This document shows, piece by piece, positions 2,597 to 22,166 of a DNA stretch of 28,346 nt. The notes beneath the pieces are model-generated. The model worked only from the letters and a program-made list of their open reading frames with translations, made no database searches and had not been told where the DNA came from. Both the position numbers and the translations under genes were made by a program. Origin of the DNA: a virus; IMG/VR virus record IMGVR_UViG_3300027784_000025, positions 1 through 28,346 of that record; one strand, given 5' to 3'. Position 1 is the first letter of the stretch, and every line of letters begins with the position of its first letter.

Positions 2597-3019
2597 ATGA
2601 TGCGTATTGCTGGACTGGATACGAGCTTTATTGACGGGGATGGCATTGCGTTTGTGGTGTTTTTCCAGGGGTGTACGTTGCGATGCCCGCACTGCCATAA
2701 CCCGGAACTGCAGTCTGTGGACGGCGGTATTGAGGTAGCACCGGAAGAGGTATTGCAACACCTGGACATGGATTTTTACGACTCTGTCGTGTTCTCTGGC
2801 GGTGAGCCATTGGGCCAGCCTGAAGCACTGCAGGAGTTGGCAAAGTATATTACCCTGCCAAAATGGCTTTATACTGGTTGGGAACTTAGCCAGATACCGT
2901 GGCATATAGGTGTTTTAATGGACGTGATTGTTGCTGGGCCGTATCGGGATGATTTGCGCACAGGTGGCTTCCCGGCGTCCTCAAATCAAATAGTATGGAG
3001 GCGATCCGGTGCGGTTTGA
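2597..3019 (+). CDS. nrdG: Anaerobic ribonucleotide reductase activating protein
   Basis: A 140-residue radical-SAM activase. C26, C30 and C33 form the CxxxCxxC motif (CTLRCPHC) that holds the [4Fe-4S] cluster, and FSGGEP (67-72) is the SAM-binding GGE motif. The protein cleaves S-adenosylmethionine and abstracts hydrogen from the C-terminal glycine of NrdD to create the glycyl radical. Its length is typical of NrdG. GGGAGG at 2585-2590 serves ATG 2597; ATG 2600 is also possible. The gene overlaps the start of nrdD by 11 bases, a usual partner arrangement although here nrdG comes first. Translation may be controlled by the structured leader just upstream. Confidence 0.93.
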   Translation: MMRIAGLDTSFIDGDGIAFVVFFQGCTLRCPHCHNPELQSVDGGIEVAPEEVLQHLDMDFYDSVVFSGGEPLGQPEALQELAKYITLPKWLYTGWELSQIPWHIGVLMDVIVAGPYRDDLRTGGFPASSNQIVWRRSGAV

Positions 3020-4871
3020 TATGACTTTGGACAAGGAATTCGACGAGCTATACCGGAGCTACAAGAACTCGGATTTTGGTCATCGGCTTTTGGCGATGGA
3101 TGGGATTGCCCCGGAGCAGTTGGACGTGGGGGCTATGTCCCGGAAATACTATACACAGGCGACGGCAGATGTGTCGGTGGACACAAACGCTAACGCCAAT
3201 GAGAATGTCTCGATTAACAATTACGCTAGCGAGGTTACGAAGGGGCTTTTGAAGCTGGAAGGGTATTATCTGCTGTACCATTACGCTCAGAAGCGGTTTG
3301 GTAGCCAACGGGCTATGGAACTCATCGAGGCGATTTGGGACGGCGATGTGTACTTCCACGATAGCTCTGGCCCGCAGATCCAGCAACCGTATTGTTTTAG
3401 TTACTCTACAACGATGGTGATGTTGGAAGGCCGCCCGTACGGGCAGTTAAAGAGTATGCCCCCAAAGCGGTCTGACAGCTTTATAGCGCAGGTTATCGAA
3501 ATGACGATGGATCTGTCCCAGGACTTTGCAGGGGCGATTACACCGGCGGATATGCTGGTGAATTACGCCTGGTTTGCGAAGCGGGAAGGTTTGACGGCAG
3601 ATTGTATTGTGAACGACCTGCAGAAGTTTGTCCACGTGATCAATAACAAGTTCCGGATGGGCGCACAGAGCCCGTTCGTTAACCTGAGCCTGTTTGACCG
3701 TCCGAACTTGGAAAAAGTCTTTTCCGGGCATGTGTATCCTGATGGGAGTGAACCGGACTTTGACTATATCATGTGGATCCAGCGGTTATTCGGGAATTGG
3801 TTTGCGAAAGGGGATCCATCGAGCGGATTGCCTTACCGTTTCCCGGTGGTGACATTGAATCTGACTCGTGGCGAAGATCGGGAAATCCTGGACGATGCCT
3901 TTTTGGACTGGGCCAGCGAGGCTAATCGGGCGTTAGGGTGCTTTAACTGGTACGTCAACGACGGTACTAAGTTGGCAAGTTGTTGCCGCCTGGTGAATGA
4001 TGCCACGCGGATGCAATTTCGGACGGACAGCTTTGGTAACGGCGGCCTGAACATCGGTTCGCACCGTGTTGTAACAGTAAACCTGCCCCGCTTGGGTTGG
4101 CTGTCCAAAGATGCGAAAGAGCTATACAATCGTCTGCAGTGGGCGTTGGATATTTGCCGGGATCTGTTGATTGTGCACCGAGAAGAAATTCTTAAACGCC
4201 GTATTGAGGCGGGTGTCTTGAAATTCTACGAGCCATTGCGTTGGTTTGCGCTGTCTCAGCTATTCTCGACGATTGGCATTGTCGGGGTTTACGAAATGAG
4301 CCAGCGGATGGGCTGGGATCTGACGGAAGACGATGAGGTGGAGGACGTTCTTCGGTACATTGAGGATCAAGCGATTCTCTATTCGGAGAAAGATCGCTGT
4401 TCGTACAACGTCGAGGAAATCCCCGGTGAAAGTGCGGCAGTGAAACTGGCATCGAAAGATGCGCTATTACTTCATGCCGATGAATACGAGCTTTATAGCA
4501 ACCAGTATCTGCCGCTGATCGCTGATGTGAGCGTGAAGGAGCGGATCGAGACAACAGGCCGCTATATGGATATCTTAAGCGGTGGCGGTATCCTGCACTT
4601 GAATATTAAAGAGCCGATTCCGGATCAGAGAACCATGCGCAAGCTGGTGAAATATGCTGTCAGCCAAGGGGTGTCCCACCTGAGTGTGAACTACGGCTTT
4701 GGTATCTGTGAGAATGGTCATACGTCAGTAGCTGGCACGGATACGATGTGCCCTGTGTGCGGAGAAGAAATCCAGGACTGGCTGACAAGGATAATCGGCT
4801 ATTTCACGCGGGTGAGCAGTTGGAACAGCAAACGACGGGATTATGAGTACGAACGGCGTGTCTTTATGTAG
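3009..4871 (+). CDS. nrdD: Anaerobic ribonucleoside-triphosphate reductase, class III
   Basis: A 620-residue glycyl-radical enzyme that reduces ribonucleotides to deoxyribonucleotides without oxygen. Visible landmarks: a VDTNANANENVSINNYASE stretch near 57-75; C129 (PYCFSYS) and C325/C326 (LASCCRLVN) as candidate active-site cysteines; a C-terminal metal site with C567, H571, C581 and C584; and RIIGY with G597 as the probable radical glycine. The N-terminal segment before C129 looks too short for a full ATP-cone, so overall activity control by dATP may be missing, as in small phage enzymes. GTG 3009 is chosen because GGAGG lies at 2997-3001; ATG 3021 is an alternative. It works with NrdG. Confidence 0.95.
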   Translation: MRFDMTLDKEFDELYRSYKNSDFGHRLLAMDGIAPEQLDVGAMSRKYYTQATADVSVDTNANANENVSINNYASEVTKGLLKLEGYYLLYHYAQKRFGSQRAMELIEAIWDGDVYFHDSSGPQIQQPYCFSYSTTMVMLEGRPYGQLKSMPPKRSDSFIAQVIEMTMDLSQDFAGAITPADMLVNYAWFAKREGLTADCIVNDLQKFVHVINNKFRMGAQSPFVNLSLFDRPNLEKVFSGHVYPDGSEPDFDYIMWIQRLFGNWFAKGDPSSGLPYRFPVVTLNLTRGEDREILDDAFLDWASEANRALGCFNWYVNDGTKLASCCRLVNDATRMQFRTDSFGNGGLNIGSHRVVTVNLPRLGWLSKDAKELYNRLQWALDICRDLLIVHREEILKRRIEAGVLKFYEPLRWFALSQLFSTIGIVGVYEMSQRMGWDLTEDDEVEDVLRYIEDQAILYSEKDRCSYNVEEIPGESAAVKLASKDALLLHADEYELYSNQYLPLIADVSVKERIETTGRYMDILSGGGILHLNIKEPIPDQRTMRKLVKYAVSQGVSHLSVNYGFGICENGHTSVAGTDTMCPVCGEEIQDWLTRIIGYFTRVSSWNSKRRDYEYERRVFM

Positions 4872-16191: not shown

Positions 16192-16709
16192 TGGATTACC
16201 GCCAACTGCGGCGATTGTTTGTGCCTAAGTTGGAAGAATACCTGGACGACAAGGACTGCCGTGTGGTGTCTTTGCGCCCGGACGCGCCGAAACCGGACTA
16301 TCCGTACCTTGGCTATACGTTGATTACCCCGTACTCGCCAGGAGTGGGGTTTGTGGCGACAGAGGGCGTGACTGACGGCACGGATGGCTGGGAGTATGAC
16401 TTTCAGTATGACTTCGTCCATCAACCGACTGTGACGTTCTCTTTTACGGCCTGTGCGGCAGATGAAGATACGGCGACCGAAATTGCGAAACTGACTCATG
16501 AGTGGTTCGAGTTTGTCGGTTATATGTATCTGTCACAGAATGGCGTTGTGGTGGTGGAAGCGATGGACGTGGAGAACCGCGACACAATGCTGGACGACGA
16601 TTTGGAATTTCGCCGCGGGTTTGATGTGCGTTTGCGGCTGACTGACCGTGTACGCCAGCGGTTGGAGACGATTGAGGAAGTCCGAACGAGAAAGGGTGAG
16701 ATCGGATGA
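16188..16709 (+). CDS. Neck/tail terminator protein (gp12-like)
   Basis: A 173-residue alpha/beta protein in the slot just before the sheath, where the terminator ring protein is expected. The phrases PKPDYPYLGYTLITPY and QPTVTFSFTACAADEDTATE followed by a helix and strand (HEWFEF ... VVVVEAMDVENRD) match the phage neck terminator/LIC12-like group. It should cap the tube and sheath and join them to the head. Start ATG 16188 (or 16191); the end overlaps the sheath start by 4 bases. Confidence 0.8.
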   Translation: MMDYRQLRRLFVPKLEEYLDDKDCRVVSLRPDAPKPDYPYLGYTLITPYSPGVGFVATEGVTDGTDGWEYDFQYDFVHQPTVTFSFTACAADEDTATEIAKLTHEWFEFVGYMYLSQNGVVVVEAMDVENRDTMLDDDLEFRRGFDVRLRLTDRVRQRLETIEEVRTRKGEIG

Positions 16710-18028
16710 TTAAAGACGTACGAATCACCGTCTCCCGTGAGACAGCACCTATTACGCAGGCTGGTTTTGGCTTGCCGCTGATCGTGGGAGTCGATGATAA
16801 CGTTGATTTTAAGCTGTGCACGTCCACTGGTGATGTGGATGACGCTGGTTTTGATTCGAGCACAGATGTTTACAAGATGGCGGCTAAGATGCTAGCCCAA
16901 GAACCAGCACCACAGCAGATTGCTGTAGCTGGTGCCGAGCCGCAGGAGCGCAATGCGACTGTTGTCTTGGAGTCCGAGGACGGTGCCCGGATTCACGTGG
17001 AAGCAACCGGCGATAAATCCGGTGATGATGGTAATGATGAAGCGATTGAGATCGTTAACGAAGGCGATGAGTTTGAAGCCACGCATGGTGACGAAGGAAA
17101 CGGTGGTACGATTACTGTGGATCTGGCAGGGACTGAACGCTCTGCGGCTGATATTGCCCATGAAATCGACAGTTTAAGCGATTTCGAGGCTTATGTCCTG
17201 GACGGAGGGTATTTTGACCCGGATATGGATTTGCAGGACAAGGATTTCGAAGGCGGCGAGGATTCGTCCTTGGCGGCCGCTTTGGATGAGTTGGTGGACA
17301 AGGGCCATGACTTTTATTTCATCCTGGCTGATACCCGTGAAGAGTCTGATGTGCGGGAAATCGCCAGTTGGGCCGGTGCTAATGACAAGATGTATGTGGC
17401 AAGCCCGGATCGCGGCGTTAGCGAAATGATTGACTTGCAGAAGGATATTGCTTCGGATCGAGTTGTCTTGTTCTACCATGATGATCCGGAGGAATTCCTT
17501 GATGCGGCTGTTGTGGGCCGTTGTGCACCTGAAGATCCCGGTACGATTACCTGGAAGTTCAAGACGCTTAACGACGTAGCTCTGCCTGAGGTAACGGCGA
17601 CTGACATGCAAAAGTTGTATGGGGCTAATATCAACACCTATGTTGAGAAACTCGGCGTCCCACAGACGTCTGACGGCCTGACGACGGTTGGTGAGTATAT
17701 TGACGTGATTCGGGGTCAGGATTATGTGCAGGTACGTTTGAATGAGGACTTGCACCAGTTGCTCTTTAACGCACCGAGGGTTCCCTTCGACAGCCGGGGC
17801 ATTGCCCAGGTGAAAGCTGCGATTCGCAGCCGTTTGATTGATGCCGCGGATATGGGCATTATTGCGCAGAACGAGGATGGGCGTCCGATGTTTACGGTGG
17901 AAACACCTCGCCGGGCTGAAATACCAGAGGCGGATCTGGCAAACCGTCGCCTGCGCAACGTCGAATTTGAGTACACCACGGCCGGGGCTGTGCATTATAT
18001 TGAAGTCCACGGCGTTGTGACCGTTTAA
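16706..18028 (+). CDS. Tail sheath protein (DUF3383-like), with an acidic inserted domain
   Basis: A 440-residue contractile sheath subunit. The N-terminus (VRITVSRETAPITQAGFGLP) is typical of the DUF3383-type sheath group, the central part includes ADTREESDVREIASWAGAN, and the C-terminal domain ends in a strand (GAVHYIEVHGVVTV) that would join neighbouring subunits. Residues about 84-162 are an inserted beta-rich acidic domain resembling part of the protein at 14274-14972. It overlaps the preceding gene by 4 bases. The sheath is followed by the tube gene, the standard order for myophages. Confidence 0.9.
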   Translation: MIKDVRITVSRETAPITQAGFGLPLIVGVDDNVDFKLCTSTGDVDDAGFDSSTDVYKMAAKMLAQEPAPQQIAVAGAEPQERNATVVLESEDGARIHVEATGDKSGDDGNDEAIEIVNEGDEFEATHGDEGNGGTITVDLAGTERSAADIAHEIDSLSDFEAYVLDGGYFDPDMDLQDKDFEGGEDSSLAAALDELVDKGHDFYFILADTREESDVREIASWAGANDKMYVASPDRGVSEMIDLQKDIASDRVVLFYHDDPEEFLDAAVVGRCAPEDPGTITWKFKTLNDVALPEVTATDMQKLYGANINTYVEKLGVPQTSDGLTTVGEYIDVIRGQDYVQVRLNEDLHQLLFNAPRVPFDSRGIAQVKAAIRSRLIDAADMGIIAQNEDGRPMFTVETPRRAEIPEADLANRRLRNVEFEYTTAGAVHYIEVHGVVTV

Positions 18029-18041
18029 GGAGGGATGACGC

Positions 18042-18449
18042 ATGTATACGTATGATCCCCGTGAAGTTACGTTGACGGTGGACGGCGATGCTATTGTCGG
18101 CTTTGCCGAAGGCACGTATATCACGGCTGAAAAAGATGAGGATCTATACACGGAACACGTTGGTAGTCAAGGCGAAGTGACTCGTTCACGCAATCCCCAT
18201 CCCATGGGCGAAATCACGGTTACGTTGAAGTCGTCCAGCCCGTCTAACAAAAGGTTGTTTGACCTAAGCCAAAGCCAGGAGCTTTTCGGTGTCTTTGTTG
18301 TGGACGATAACACCGGTGCGTTCTCGGCTGGCGGCAATAAGTGCTGGGTGCAAAAACCCGCTGGACGGGACTTGGGACAGGAAGAAGGCGAACGGGACTG
18401 GACAATCCGTATCGCGGATTGGGATCAAGAAGAGGAATACAGAGGATAA
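18042..18449 (+). CDS. Tail tube protein (DUF3277-like)
   Basis: A 135-residue beta-barrel-like protein right after the sheath. It starts TYDPREVTLTVDGDAIVGFA and has EITVTLKSSSPSNKRLFDLS in the centre and WTIRIADWDQEEEYRG at the end, as in the DUF3277 tail tube group. It stacks in hexameric rings inside the sheath and forms the DNA channel. Strong ribosome binding site AAGGAGGGATG before ATG 18042. Confidence 0.88.
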   Translation: MYTYDPREVTLTVDGDAIVGFAEGTYITAEKDEDLYTEHVGSQGEVTRSRNPHPMGEITVTLKSSSPSNKRLFDLSQSQELFGVFVVDDNTGAFSAGGNKCWVQKPAGRDLGQEEGERDWTIRIADWDQEEEYRG

Positions 18450-18465: not shown

Positions 18466-18711
18466 ATGGCTAAGCAGGACAAGGTGACGATTAATGGTAC
18501 GGAATATCATTTGCAACACCCGGGTGCCCGTTGGGTATTGCGCCTGCAGACACGGGCCAAGTACCAGGGCGAACCGGATTTGGAGAAAATGGCGCAGGAA
18601 TATCTGGAAAACGTTGTCGTAAAACCGAAGGTGACGCTTGACGACTTCGACGAGGACTTTGAGACGTTGGAAGAGTTGGTGACGGCGATAAACTCCTTTC
18701 TTAGGAGCTAG
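18466..18711 (+). CDS. Tail assembly chaperone, short form
   Basis: An 81-residue protein between tube and tape measure, the place of the short tail chaperone (gpG-like). It has a small beta start (KVTINGTEYHLQHPGARWVL) and a helical acidic C-terminus (FETLEELVTAINSFL). GGGAGGG precedes ATG 18466. Just before its TAG (18709-18711) another reading frame opens that continues for 64 codons without a usable start, so a longer frameshift product is likely. The short form would be the more abundant one and coats the tape measure during assembly. Confidence 0.85.
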   Translation: MAKQDKVTINGTEYHLQHPGARWVLRLQTRAKYQGEPDLEKMAQEYLENVVVKPKVTLDDFDEDFETLEELVTAINSFLRS

Positions 18712-18895
18712 CGAGCATTACGACCACAGGGCCATTGCCAAAGAGGCGTGGCCCTTGTGGCGTCTTATTCTGTTCGGTCTGGATCCGGGCTGGGTGGAAC
18801 AGTTGGATCTGGACGAGGTGGAAGAAGCGAACGCGGCGTTAGATCTCTACCACGAGGAAATGCAACGGCAACAGAGACGGAAAGGAGGTGGCTGA
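18466..18895 (+). CDS. Tail assembly chaperone, frameshift extension product (G-T type)
   Basis: If ribosomes move +1 (or -2) near codon 79, the frame becomes TTA 18701, GGA, GCT and on to TGA 18893-18895. The extra about 64 residues include EAWPLWRLILFGLDPGWVEQ and a charged helical end (YHEEMQRQQRRKGGG). The downstream frame has no ATG or GTG before it is well under way, and no ribosome binding site, so independent translation is unlikely. Tail chaperone pairs made by programmed frameshifting are known across tailed phages, including -2 in Mu-like phages and +1 in Listeria phage PSA genes. This fusion ends exactly where the tape measure starts. Confidence 0.75.
18692..18711 (+). other. Programmed +1 (or -2) frameshift window and candidate slip site
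   Basis: The new frame has TAA at 18689-18691 and the zero frame ends at TAG 18709-18711, so the shift must occur within these 20 bases. Zero frame reads AAC TCC TTT CTT AGG AGC TAG. Slipping of the tRNA from CTT (18700-18702) to TTA (18701-18703) while the rare AGG codon waits would give the +1 frame; CTT-AGG is the same pair used by the yeast Ty1 element. Slipping from TTT to TTC (18697-18700) is an alternative. An AGGAG at 18703-18707 overlaps the site. Confidence 0.65.
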
Positions 18896-21800
18896 TATCG
18901 CACTGCGGGAACTGGCGAATGTGATCCGCTTTGATATTGACGAAGGGCCGTTGAAAGAGGCCGACGCGATGATGGACAAGTTCCGGAGTCGCGTGGAAGA
19001 GTCGAGCGGATCCTTGGAGGAAATGGGCGAGTCGGGCGAAAGTGCCTTAGGAACGGTGGAGAGCAAGTCCAAGACAGCAAAAACCTCTTTGCAGTCCATG
19101 TCCAAGGAAAGTAGACGGGGCGGCAAGGAAATGAAAACAACATACCGCGGTGTAGGCGGCTCTTTGCAGAATCTGTCGTCTCAAGCCGGGCAAGCGTTTA
19201 GTGCTCTCCGTTCCGGTATGATGGGTATTATGGCGACCGGCTTTGCAGGTAAAATGTTCCAGGCTGCCTCCAATATTGAAACGTTGGAGATCCAACTGCG
19301 CCATGCGGCTGAAACCGAGAGCGAATGGGCATCCTTTACCGATGAAATGGAACGGCTGGAAGAACTTTCGGGCGGTATGTATCGTCAAGGTGACTTGATG
19401 GGTATTGCCCGGCAGGCCACGCAAATGGGTTTCTCTTTGCAGGAATTCGGCGAGATTGCTGAGGATGCCATGGTGCTGGCAGAAGCCCGAGGCGTGGACT
19501 TTGACCGCATGATGCGCCAACTGAATGAGACGATAGCTGCGGGCGTTGTGAGCCGCAGGCAGTTTGTCCGTTTAACGGGTATTGACTTAGAACAGGCGTT
19601 GCAGGAAGCTGGCTATTCGATGGCTGACTTCCGTTCGGAAATGGATGCGACACAGCGCAGGCAACTCTTGTATAACTTGATCCAACAGCAAAGCGGCGAA
19701 CACATGGATGCTTTTGAGGAAGTTGTGGAAAGCGGCGCAGGTTCTGTACAGGCTTTCCGGGGTGCACTCGGCGATATGGTGGAGATCATGGGTGAACCTC
19801 TCCTGGATCCATTATCGACGGTTATGCAGTGGCTGACGGACATATTCGACATGATTCGTGATGACCCGATAGGCGAACAGATGCTGAAATGGATCGGATG
19901 GGGTACTGCCATCGGCGGTGTGTCCATGGGTGTATTAGGCTTGTATAGAGCGTTCCAAATGCTCTTGCCCGTGATTACAGCGGCGGCTGTGCCGTTTCTG
20001 AAGTTTGCTGTGATTGGATCCTTGATCTTCCTGGCTGTTGAGGATATTGTCGGTGCGTTCATGGGTCTGGAAGAGACGATCACGGAAGATGTGTATTACG
20101 CCATCACGGAGGACTTCCTCGGCCTTGAAGGCGACTTTGGAGCGTTCCGTGACTCGGTGATTGAAAAACTCGATGCTGTTGGCAGAGCCATGGGTGGCTT
20201 GTTTGACGGCGATTGGGATATGGTGGCCGAGGCGTATATTGACTTCCGGGGTATTGACGACGATGAATTTGCGTCTCAGATCCTAAACGACTTGATTGCT
20301 GGTTTGGCCGCCGTTGGTTTGGGCGTGAAACTAGGCCCGGCCGGTGCTTTGATTGTCCCACTGATGCTGGCTATTGACTGGGAGTGGGTTGGCGATTCGA
20401 TTGTCGAATTTCTTGATGGCTGGTTGGACAGACTGCGGGACTTTACGGGGGCTGATGATCCAGAGACAGCGGCACGGGAACTGGGCCGCTTGGAAGAGGA
20501 AGAAGAGCGCAGGCAAACAATGCAGGAGCGTTGGGAAGAACTCTGGCCTCGTGATTACGGCGTTACAGGCCGCCGCCGAGTGCCTTTCGAGGACTTCGTG
20601 ATCCTGAAGGAACATGGTTTGCACGATGAGTTTATGGACTGGTACGAATCCCGGGAATGGGGCCGTTTTGAGGCTCCAACGTTAGAGGAATTCCTGGAAG
20701 ATACGGAGCACGATATTGAAGGATATCGCGAGGGTACACCTTGGACAGGCTCAGGCCCGGCTGATCGCTTTGCTGGCTTTGTGCACAACCGTGAGGCGGT
20801 GATTCCGGAAGATACGCTTAGAGAAGGGCCGGGAGCCGTCTTGTCGTTCTTAGGTATGGCCGGGTTCCGTGAAGGATACCGTCCTGGGCTGATAGCTGGT
20901 GGAGAGGCCGACGATGATCCTTTGGACGTGCGGATTGTGGCTGACGAAATTGAAGCAGAGTGGCACAGCTTTGGTGATCCTATAGATCGCTTGGATCCGC
21001 TGAGTGAGATGGAAGTGCATCCTTTGACGGAACAACGGGTTGCCCGTGATGTGGAAGTACCGGAGGAAATGCTCGACACTTTGGAAATCTTGCCCATGGC
21101 TCCGGGTGAATTCGAGTTTGAAGGAGATCCAACGGTGGGTGAAATTTACGATCAGATGATGGCTCACCAGATAGAAGTACCGGCACCGGTTTGGATGACT
21201 GGTGCAGGGGCTCAGATTACCGGTGGCTGGCTTACGAAAATAGCTAAGGCGGGTGAGGGAGCGAATCTATTCAAGAAACTCCCGTTTTTGGCTCCGGTGT
21301 TGATCCCTATTTTGAAAAAGGTGGGGCCGTTTATAGCGGCGGCTGGCACCGGTATTCTTGCTACGGCGATGGTTTCGCGTATGTTTCCGGAAGCTCTGCG
21401 GAGTGTCGTGATGGCCGCTGGTGGTCTTATTTCGGGAATAAGCGATACAATCTTCCCGGCTGAAATCGAAGATGAAGAGTTGACGGTATTTGAACGAGCG
21501 ATGCGTCTAGGTGAGCTTGAAGCACATTGGCGTGTGGCGCAACAGGAAGCCATGGAAGCGTTGGCGCACCAAACGGTGAATTTTATACTCAATTTGTTGG
21601 AGCATTGGCGAGAGTCGATTATCCGTGGCACAGTTATGGCTGTTTGGTATGGGCCGCAAGCATTGGCTGGGTTCTTGGCCGGCTATGTTAAAGAACGTTT
21701 GAAACTGGAATGGTGGGAACCCGGTATTGAAACGCTTACCAGGGACTTGGAAGCCATTGGACGAGGCGATCTCCTTGACGAAAAACCGGACATTGGCACG

Positions 21801-22166
21801 ATTGAGGAACCACCGGATCGTCCTTGGTGGGCGGATCCGTTGCAGATGTTGCCCGGGTTCCAGCGTGGTACTCCATGGACAGGACACGGGCCATTGAGCG
21901 AGCCTGCGGGCGTCGTGCATCGCCAAGAGGCTGTTGTGCCTTGGGAAACACTGCGAGGCGGTGCCGGGGCTGTATTGGACTTTCTCGGTATGTCTGGCGG
22001 TGGCTTTGTGTTCTCCCCGCAGGTTCAGGTAACGGTCGATGCGTCTGGTGAGCAACCAGAGCGAGCCGCTGAGCGTATGCGGGAGGCTGTGGAGTATCAA
22101 TTCGATGAAATGATGGAGAGGTATTATGCGCGCATGCGTAAGAAAGCTCCGCAAGTGGCGTTTTAG
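18888..22166 (+). CDS. Tail tape measure protein
   Basis: A 1092-residue protein, the longest in the window. The N-terminus (ADIALRELANVIRFDIDEGP, then a long helical region to about 130) is coiled coil. There are strongly hydrophobic segments at about 335-395, 467-499 and 799-829 that can insert into the host membrane on ejection. The C-terminal half is acidic and contains a 45-residue repeat seen twice. The length would suggest a tail of roughly 160 nm at 0.15 nm per residue. GTG 18888 overlaps its own AAGGAGGTG ribosome binding site and the chaperone extension stop, so translation is probably coupled to the frameshift product. An exact start a few codons later is possible. Confidence 0.92.
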   Translation: MADIALRELANVIRFDIDEGPLKEADAMMDKFRSRVEESSGSLEEMGESGESALGTVESKSKTAKTSLQSMSKESRRGGKEMKTTYRGVGGSLQNLSSQAGQAFSALRSGMMGIMATGFAGKMFQAASNIETLEIQLRHAAETESEWASFTDEMERLEELSGGMYRQGDLMGIARQATQMGFSLQEFGEIAEDAMVLAEARGVDFDRMMRQLNETIAAGVVSRRQFVRLTGIDLEQALQEAGYSMADFRSEMDATQRRQLLYNLIQQQSGEHMDAFEEVVESGAGSVQAFRGALGDMVEIMGEPLLDPLSTVMQWLTDIFDMIRDDPIGEQMLKWIGWGTAIGGVSMGVLGLYRAFQMLLPVITAAAVPFLKFAVIGSLIFLAVEDIVGAFMGLEETITEDVYYAITEDFLGLEGDFGAFRDSVIEKLDAVGRAMGGLFDGDWDMVAEAYIDFRGIDDDEFASQILNDLIAGLAAVGLGVKLGPAGALIVPLMLAIDWEWVGDSIVEFLDGWLDRLRDFTGADDPETAARELGRLEEEEERRQTMQERWEELWPRDYGVTGRRRVPFEDFVILKEHGLHDEFMDWYESREWGRFEAPTLEEFLEDTEHDIEGYREGTPWTGSGPADRFAGFVHNREAVIPEDTLREGPGAVLSFLGMAGFREGYRPGLIAGGEADDDPLDVRIVADEIEAEWHSFGDPIDRLDPLSEMEVHPLTEQRVARDVEVPEEMLDTLEILPMAPGEFEFEGDPTVGEIYDQMMAHQIEVPAPVWMTGAGAQITGGWLTKIAKAGEGANLFKKLPFLAPVLIPILKKVGPFIAAAGTGILATAMVSRMFPEALRSVVMAAGGLISGISDTIFPAEIEDEELTVFERAMRLGELEAHWRVAQQEAMEALAHQTVNFILNLLEHWRESIIRGTVMAVWYGPQALAGFLAGYVKERLKLEWWEPGIETLTRDLEAIGRGDLLDEKPDIGTIEEPPDRPWWADPLQMLPGFQRGTPWTGHGPLSEPAGVVHRQEAVVPWETLRGGAGAVLDFLGMSGGGFVFSPQVQVTVDASGEQPERAAERMREAVEYQFDEMMERYYARMRKKAPQVAF
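20730..20864 (+). repeat. Tape measure internal repeat, copy 1
   Basis: Encodes residues 615-659 of the tape measure protein. The copy begins GTPWTGSGP, has VHNREAVIPEDTLR in the middle, and ends FLGMAG. Compared with copy 2, 29 of 45 residues are identical. Glu-Ala-Val-x-Pro with a preceding Gly/His-rich turn resembles the GE-x-V-x-P motif found near the ends of many tape measures. Confidence 0.8.
21864..21998 (+). repeat. Tape measure internal repeat, copy 2
   Basis: Encodes residues 993-1037 of the tape measure protein. It has GTPWTGHGP, VHRQEAVVPWETLR and FLGMSG at positions equivalent to copy 1. Both copies follow an acidic segment, which suggests that a longer module was duplicated and then diverged, leaving this as the conserved core. 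Confidence 0.8.

Follow-up and report, generated by a model that had tools for sequence, protein, structure and literature searches.

A frameshift conserved in tail genes was reportedly described by Xu, Hendrix and Duda in 2004. The lambda tail assembly chaperones G and GT and the tail-gene frameshift have been reviewed, a −2 shift is known for the tail chaperone of phage Mu, and a +1 shift has been proposed for that of the haloarchaeal virus HSTV-2 (PMC5009743). For haloviruses of the HF1/HF2 group, a TTT-CGC +1 site in the tail chaperone gene has been proposed without experiment (PMC7230728), and we verified this site in the HF2 sequence. Phage SPP1 is described as having a putative −1 shift at UUUUUUC in its chaperone gene (gp17.5/17.5*) and a +1 shift at CCC_U in its tail tube gene (gp17.1/17.1*) (PMC6316719). 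In bacteria, UUU followed by a pyrimidine (UUU_Ynn) has been documented to undergo +1 shifting with particular ease, and the known cases include the inferred YopN-TyeA site of Yersinia (PMC5009743). One tRNA-Phe reads both UUU and UUC, and its anticodon fits UUC better; Firth et al. predicted a general UUU_C class of sites, and the influenza A PA-X site is UCC_UUU_CGU (PMC3498833). Few conserved +1 sites lacking a stop codon are known from bacteria, and forward shifts have no recognized general motif (PMC10885494).

The window analysed here is a 28,346-base IMG/VR virus fragment with genes for terminase, portal, head, sheath, tube, tape measure and baseplate proteins, and the phage is contractile-tailed. 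The tail genes of the window and the elements in and around their overlap, described below, lie on the + strand. The tail sheath gene (16706–18028; phrog_205 tail sheath, E 5e-84; DUF3383) is followed by the tail tube gene (18042–18449; phrog_280, E 9e-37; KPP10_Orf10 family), the homologs of which include the ‘tail tube protein’ of rV5-like phages. Between the tube gene and the tape measure gene (18888–22166; phrog_167 and phrog_991, tail length tape measure) an ATG opens an 81-aa reading frame (18466–18711) for a short, G-like tail assembly chaperone (phrog_1778, E 1e-19), which we count as the 0 frame and which the sequence ends with TAG at 18709–18711. It is overlapped by a T-like extension in the +1 frame (18692–18895; phrog_37484, E 4e-7) that spans 67 codons from stop to stop and 64 after the shift; once shifted, translation would proceed from 18701, and the predicted fusion is 142 aa long if TTTC is read as one step. 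The two frames are open together for 17 nt only (18692–18708; AC TCC TTT CTT AGG AGC, with TAG next), where the 0-frame codons are TCC TTT CTT AGG AGC. The first-pass annotation had delimited this interval correctly, as 20 bases, and had also described the 64-codon second frame as having no proper start. That description is confirmed: no ATG, GTG or TTG lies upstream of the conserved core of the extension, and the earliest start-type codon is a TTG 19 codons in, within the conserved W..W motif.

To place the locus in its family, homologs from phages, IMG/VR, GTDB genomes and phrog_1778 family searches were grouped at 70% identity, which gave 43 clusters (<70% identity between them) of Firmicutes phages and prophages. 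Named hosts are Listeria, Levilactobacillus, Heyndrickxia, Exiguobacterium, Aeribacillus, Lysinibacillus and Paenibacillus, and the thermophilic phage D6E is also represented. All 43 clusters have the extension in the +1 frame, and the extension protein is conserved among the homologs, with a W..W..NAALD core. A lambda-type arrangement, that is, a −1 extension together with an X_XXY_YYZ slippery heptamer, was not found; the direction is +1 throughout. Two contigs are nearly identical to the window and keep both frames, one from IMG/VR (L002; 8 mismatches and 0 gaps in 8243 b) and one from a Syntrophomonadaceae metagenome-assembled genome (MAG) (L064; 10 mismatches and 0 gaps in 2627 b). Because these contigs are free of gaps and the 43 family clusters all keep the +1-frame extension, the sequencing error that was earlier raised as a possible refutation is excluded, and on the same comparisons so is an arrangement due to chance.

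Several members of the family have features of their own. The record of Exiguobacterium phage vB_EauM-23 (L005) annotates a transcription terminator between the tube and chaperone genes (3914–3931), and the +1 extension is left unannotated both there and in Aeribacillus phage AP45 (L009). Prophages L109 and L110 have chaperone ORFs of 169 and 177 aa, in which the C-terminal part is seemingly present as a tandem duplicate before the shift site (two profile matches per ORF), and the site itself is TTT_CGG or TTT_CGA in place of TTT_CTT. The Paenibacillus sp. 2.1 assembly holds several copies of the prophage tail region (L055–L059 and L061), with changes in L056 and L061 that break the extension or chaperone frame. 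The window also carries a gene for the large subunit of anaerobic ribonucleotide reductase (NrdD; 3009–4868), which fits an anaerobic host, and the host appears to be among anaerobic Firmicutes-type bacteria.

Within the overlap, the candidate +1 shift site is UUU_C (18697–18700), in the context UCC_UUU_CUU (18694–18702). TTT followed by C is found in 42 of the 43 clusters, at a conserved Phe column near the chaperone C terminus, and in 42/42 clusters where no CCC_A site replaces it. The site has the properties of the UUU_C class, with UUU before a pyrimidine inside the overlap and UUC or UUU in the new frame. Given the codon usage of each locus, the chance of TTT in all 42 clusters corresponds to a log10 P of about −9.8, which treats the clusters as independent; since they are related by descent, the P values are approximations. 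The ratio of TTT to TTC is 42:0 at the site versus 107:81 elsewhere in the same chaperone genes (Fisher p ~1e-9), where TTC makes up 43% of the non-site Phe codons and is more common than TTT before a C (26 versus 16). The most restrictive case for locating the shift is phage D6E (L010), in which the overlap is also 17 nt long and TTT CAA offers the sole good +1 re-pairing. In Paenibacillus phages and prophages, the overlap contains CCC AGC (CCC_A), TTT is followed by TTG, and a shift at TTT would run into TGA; one member (L060) has TTC CTA instead. This lineage serves as a natural control, in which, as judged from its codons, the constraint on TTT_C is lost and CTT is gone as well.

The codon after the site, CUU (18700–18702), would occupy the ribosomal A site and is preferred, non-essential. 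It is CTT in 36 of 42 clusters and CGG, CGA, CAG, CAA, CTG or CTC in the other six. CTT is enriched even among CTN codons at this position (Fisher p about 1e-12), and it is rare in the window, at about 9% of Leu codons. Such conservation goes beyond the needs of 0-frame Leu coding, so CUU should matter somehow: it may be a slow A-site codon, a second slip point, or a means of coding UUR Leu or UUC Phe in the +1 frame. The codon 3′ of CTT is AGG in 2 of 42 clusters and elsewhere GGN, AGA, AAC, ATG, GCN, CGA, CAA or ACA. The AGGAG that had been suggested as an internal Shine–Dalgarno-like pause is accordingly not a conserved element.

The protein evidence points to the same type of gene pair. 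An AlphaFold model of the 81-aa chaperone half, which covers that half alone and not the fusion, has a pLDDT of 94 and a pTM of 0.82. Its best neighbours in the PDB are YqbN (3klu) and the HK97 chaperone (2ob9; gp13), as weak matches (E 0.05–0.3, best E 0.05; TM 0.43–0.54), and its matches in BFVD include several annotated tail assembly chaperones, with E 9e-4 and TM 0.71 for ChaoS9. The predicted fold thus resembles that of tail chaperones, and together with the gene order and frame arrangement it supports a G/GT-type pair. Profile comparison gave no match to the rV5-type FV3 chaperone. The chaperone half corresponds to phrog_1778 and the extension to phrog_37484, or to phrog_1995 in Listeria-type relatives; all three are entered in PHROGs as ‘unknown function’. 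The gene of Halobacterium phage ChaoS9 (L134, 13492–14144) was considered as a further case of the site and was not counted: the chaperone gene does contain TTT_C, but the extension carries an ATG of its own and is read in the −1 frame. The predicted fold of this chaperone is similar, so frame direction differs within the fold family.

The order of the genes, their frames, the conserved site, the two conserved protein parts and a predicted fold like that of chaperones are direct observations. We infer that the shift occurs, how often it does, by which precise tRNA movement, and what the two products do. We regard it as very probable that the locus encodes a G/GT-type tail chaperone pair with a +1 shift at UUU_C, made by P-site tRNA-Phe moving from UUU to UUC, which is the simplest reading of the site. 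Most ribosomes would terminate at the TAG at 18709 and yield the 81-aa chaperone, and some would skip one base at UUU_C and make a second, extended version. By analogy with lambda, the short form would coat the tape measure protein and the extension would recruit tail tube subunits.

The frameshift into the +1 frame that the first-pass annotation proposed is supported by the frames, the family-wide extension and the conservation of the site. It had named the signal as a Ty1-like CTT-AGG slip pair. In such an event, P-site tRNA-Leu would leave CUU and re-pair with UUA, with a slow AGG in the A site. The Ty1 heptamer is CUU_AGG_C, and the window, with CTT_AGG_A, falls one base short of matching it. 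CTT is widespread in the family, mostly with A or G next, and slippage there would produce the same junction peptide; however, the homolog alignment called for in that annotation retains TTT_C (42/43) and not CTT-AGG, because AGG is next in 2/42 clusters, CTT is absent from six, and the C that completes the heptamer is not conserved either. An invariant TTT would also be unnecessary for a slip on CUU. Ty1 slippage depends on a UAG isoacceptor reading CUU (PMC5009743), whereas most of the host genomes tested carry tRNA-Leu(GAG), for which UUA would be a poor partner in re-pairing: ARAGORN confirmed it in eight family-carrying genomes, including the MAG with the contig nearly identical to the window, and a pattern search returned no match to it in G003, G005 and G108. 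In most of these hosts CUU is thus not left to tRNA-Leu(UAG) for want of a cognate, which removes the rationale for slippage on CUU, and we consider a Ty1-like event improbable. The frameshift looks real on the comparative evidence, yet its signal does not look Ty1-like.

A −2 frameshift, as in Mu, would reach the same +1 frame with one added residue, and tRNA-Leu on CUU could pair with the UUC two bases back. This reading is disfavoured because the members with CAA, CAG, CGG or CGA after TTT could not re-pair and the codon 5′ of TTT varies freely (ACC, AAC, TCC, CGG, GAA, AAA and others); we think it highly improbable. Independent translation of the second ORF, through re-initiation or a non-standard start codon and with no fusion made, accords with the in-frame ATG that lies in the overlap of some relatives, where the gene has been annotated in this way (for example, gp17 of Listeria phage B054). 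However, between the point where the +1 frame opens and the twentieth codon of the extension, an in-frame ATG is absent from 28 of the 43 clusters, 12 lack ATG, GTG and TTG altogether, and the constraint on TTT_C would be left without explanation, so that we give independent translation hardly any credence. A slip at UUU and a slip at CUU lead to the identical junction peptide, F-L-G-A-S; mass spectrometry of the junction therefore cannot separate them.

RNA folding predicts a strong hairpin 24–65 nt 3′ of the shift site (18721–18762; MFE −29.1 kcal/mol), inside the +1 extension gene. Synonymous recodings of this stretch average −14.6 (SD 2.9), and none of 2000 was as stable. Across the 43 clusters, a synonymous-codon scan gives a mean z of −0.93 for scan windows starting +42 from the slip codon, with z near zero well 5′ of the site, within the chaperone gene, and also further downstream; the synonymous-codon sampling signal is localized at +18 to +72. 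The strongest structure of the locus falls within +6 to +78 in 24/43 clusters versus 9.5 expected, and in the loci where the signal is strongest, the hairpin mostly starts 24–49 nt from the slip codon. Plain dinucleotide-shuffle folding gives a weak family mean (z −0.54). Hairpins are also predicted in L004 (4269–4300), L010 (D6E; 4174–4208), L050, L098, L017 and L085, and the one in D6E leads into a run of seven T and could act as a terminator or attenuator in that phage. A classic stimulatory hairpin 5–9 nt from the site was not seen, and the predicted spacing is too great for a classical stimulator. A composite +1 signal at UUU_CUU, with tRNA-Phe as well as tRNA-Leu able to re-pair one base forward (to UUC, and then to UUR or UUC) and the hairpin tuning the event at a ribosome–ribosome distance, is a rather unlikely arrangement in our estimation. 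If true, it would correspond, in the +1 direction, to the tandem −1 heptamer, as a signal stably maintained in evolution across Firmicutes tail chaperones.

Compared with the described systems, the locus under the favoured reading, a +1 shift at UUU_C, shares with lambda the order of tube, chaperone, frameshifted extension and tape measure and an N terminus common to both forms, whereas the lambda type shifts −1 on X_XXY_YYZ. With the bacterial UUU_Ynn sites it has in common the tetranucleotide and re-pairing by tRNA-Phe, but it differs in being conserved as a predicted programmed site of a phage tail gene, where CUU usually follows. The window has UCC_UUU_C in common with PA-X, and two relatives have TTT_CGA or TTT_CGG; here, unlike in PA-X, the A-site codon is usually CUU, the host is bacterial and the gene is unrelated. 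The HF1/HF2 group is similar in the +1 frame and in having TTT_C where the chaperone gene ends, and differs in being archaeal viruses with CGC rather than CTT. SPP1 likewise infects Firmicutes and has a frameshifted chaperone and, in a different tail gene, a +1 shift, but its chaperone shift is −1 and its +1 shift lies in the tail tube gene.

A full-text literature search, from which the 2009 genome paper on Listeria phage B054 was absent, found no report of UUU_CUU in phages, and a Firmicutes-wide chaperone family with conserved UUU_CUU and a lineage switched to CCC_A is apparently unreported. The family provides 43 diverged natural versions of one signal (42 with UUU_C and a preferred A-site codon, and one CCC_A lineage), which makes the rules of +1 shifting directly testable. 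It also gives a likely function to phrog_1778, phrog_37484 and phrog_1995, and explains why the second half of the chaperone often goes unannotated.
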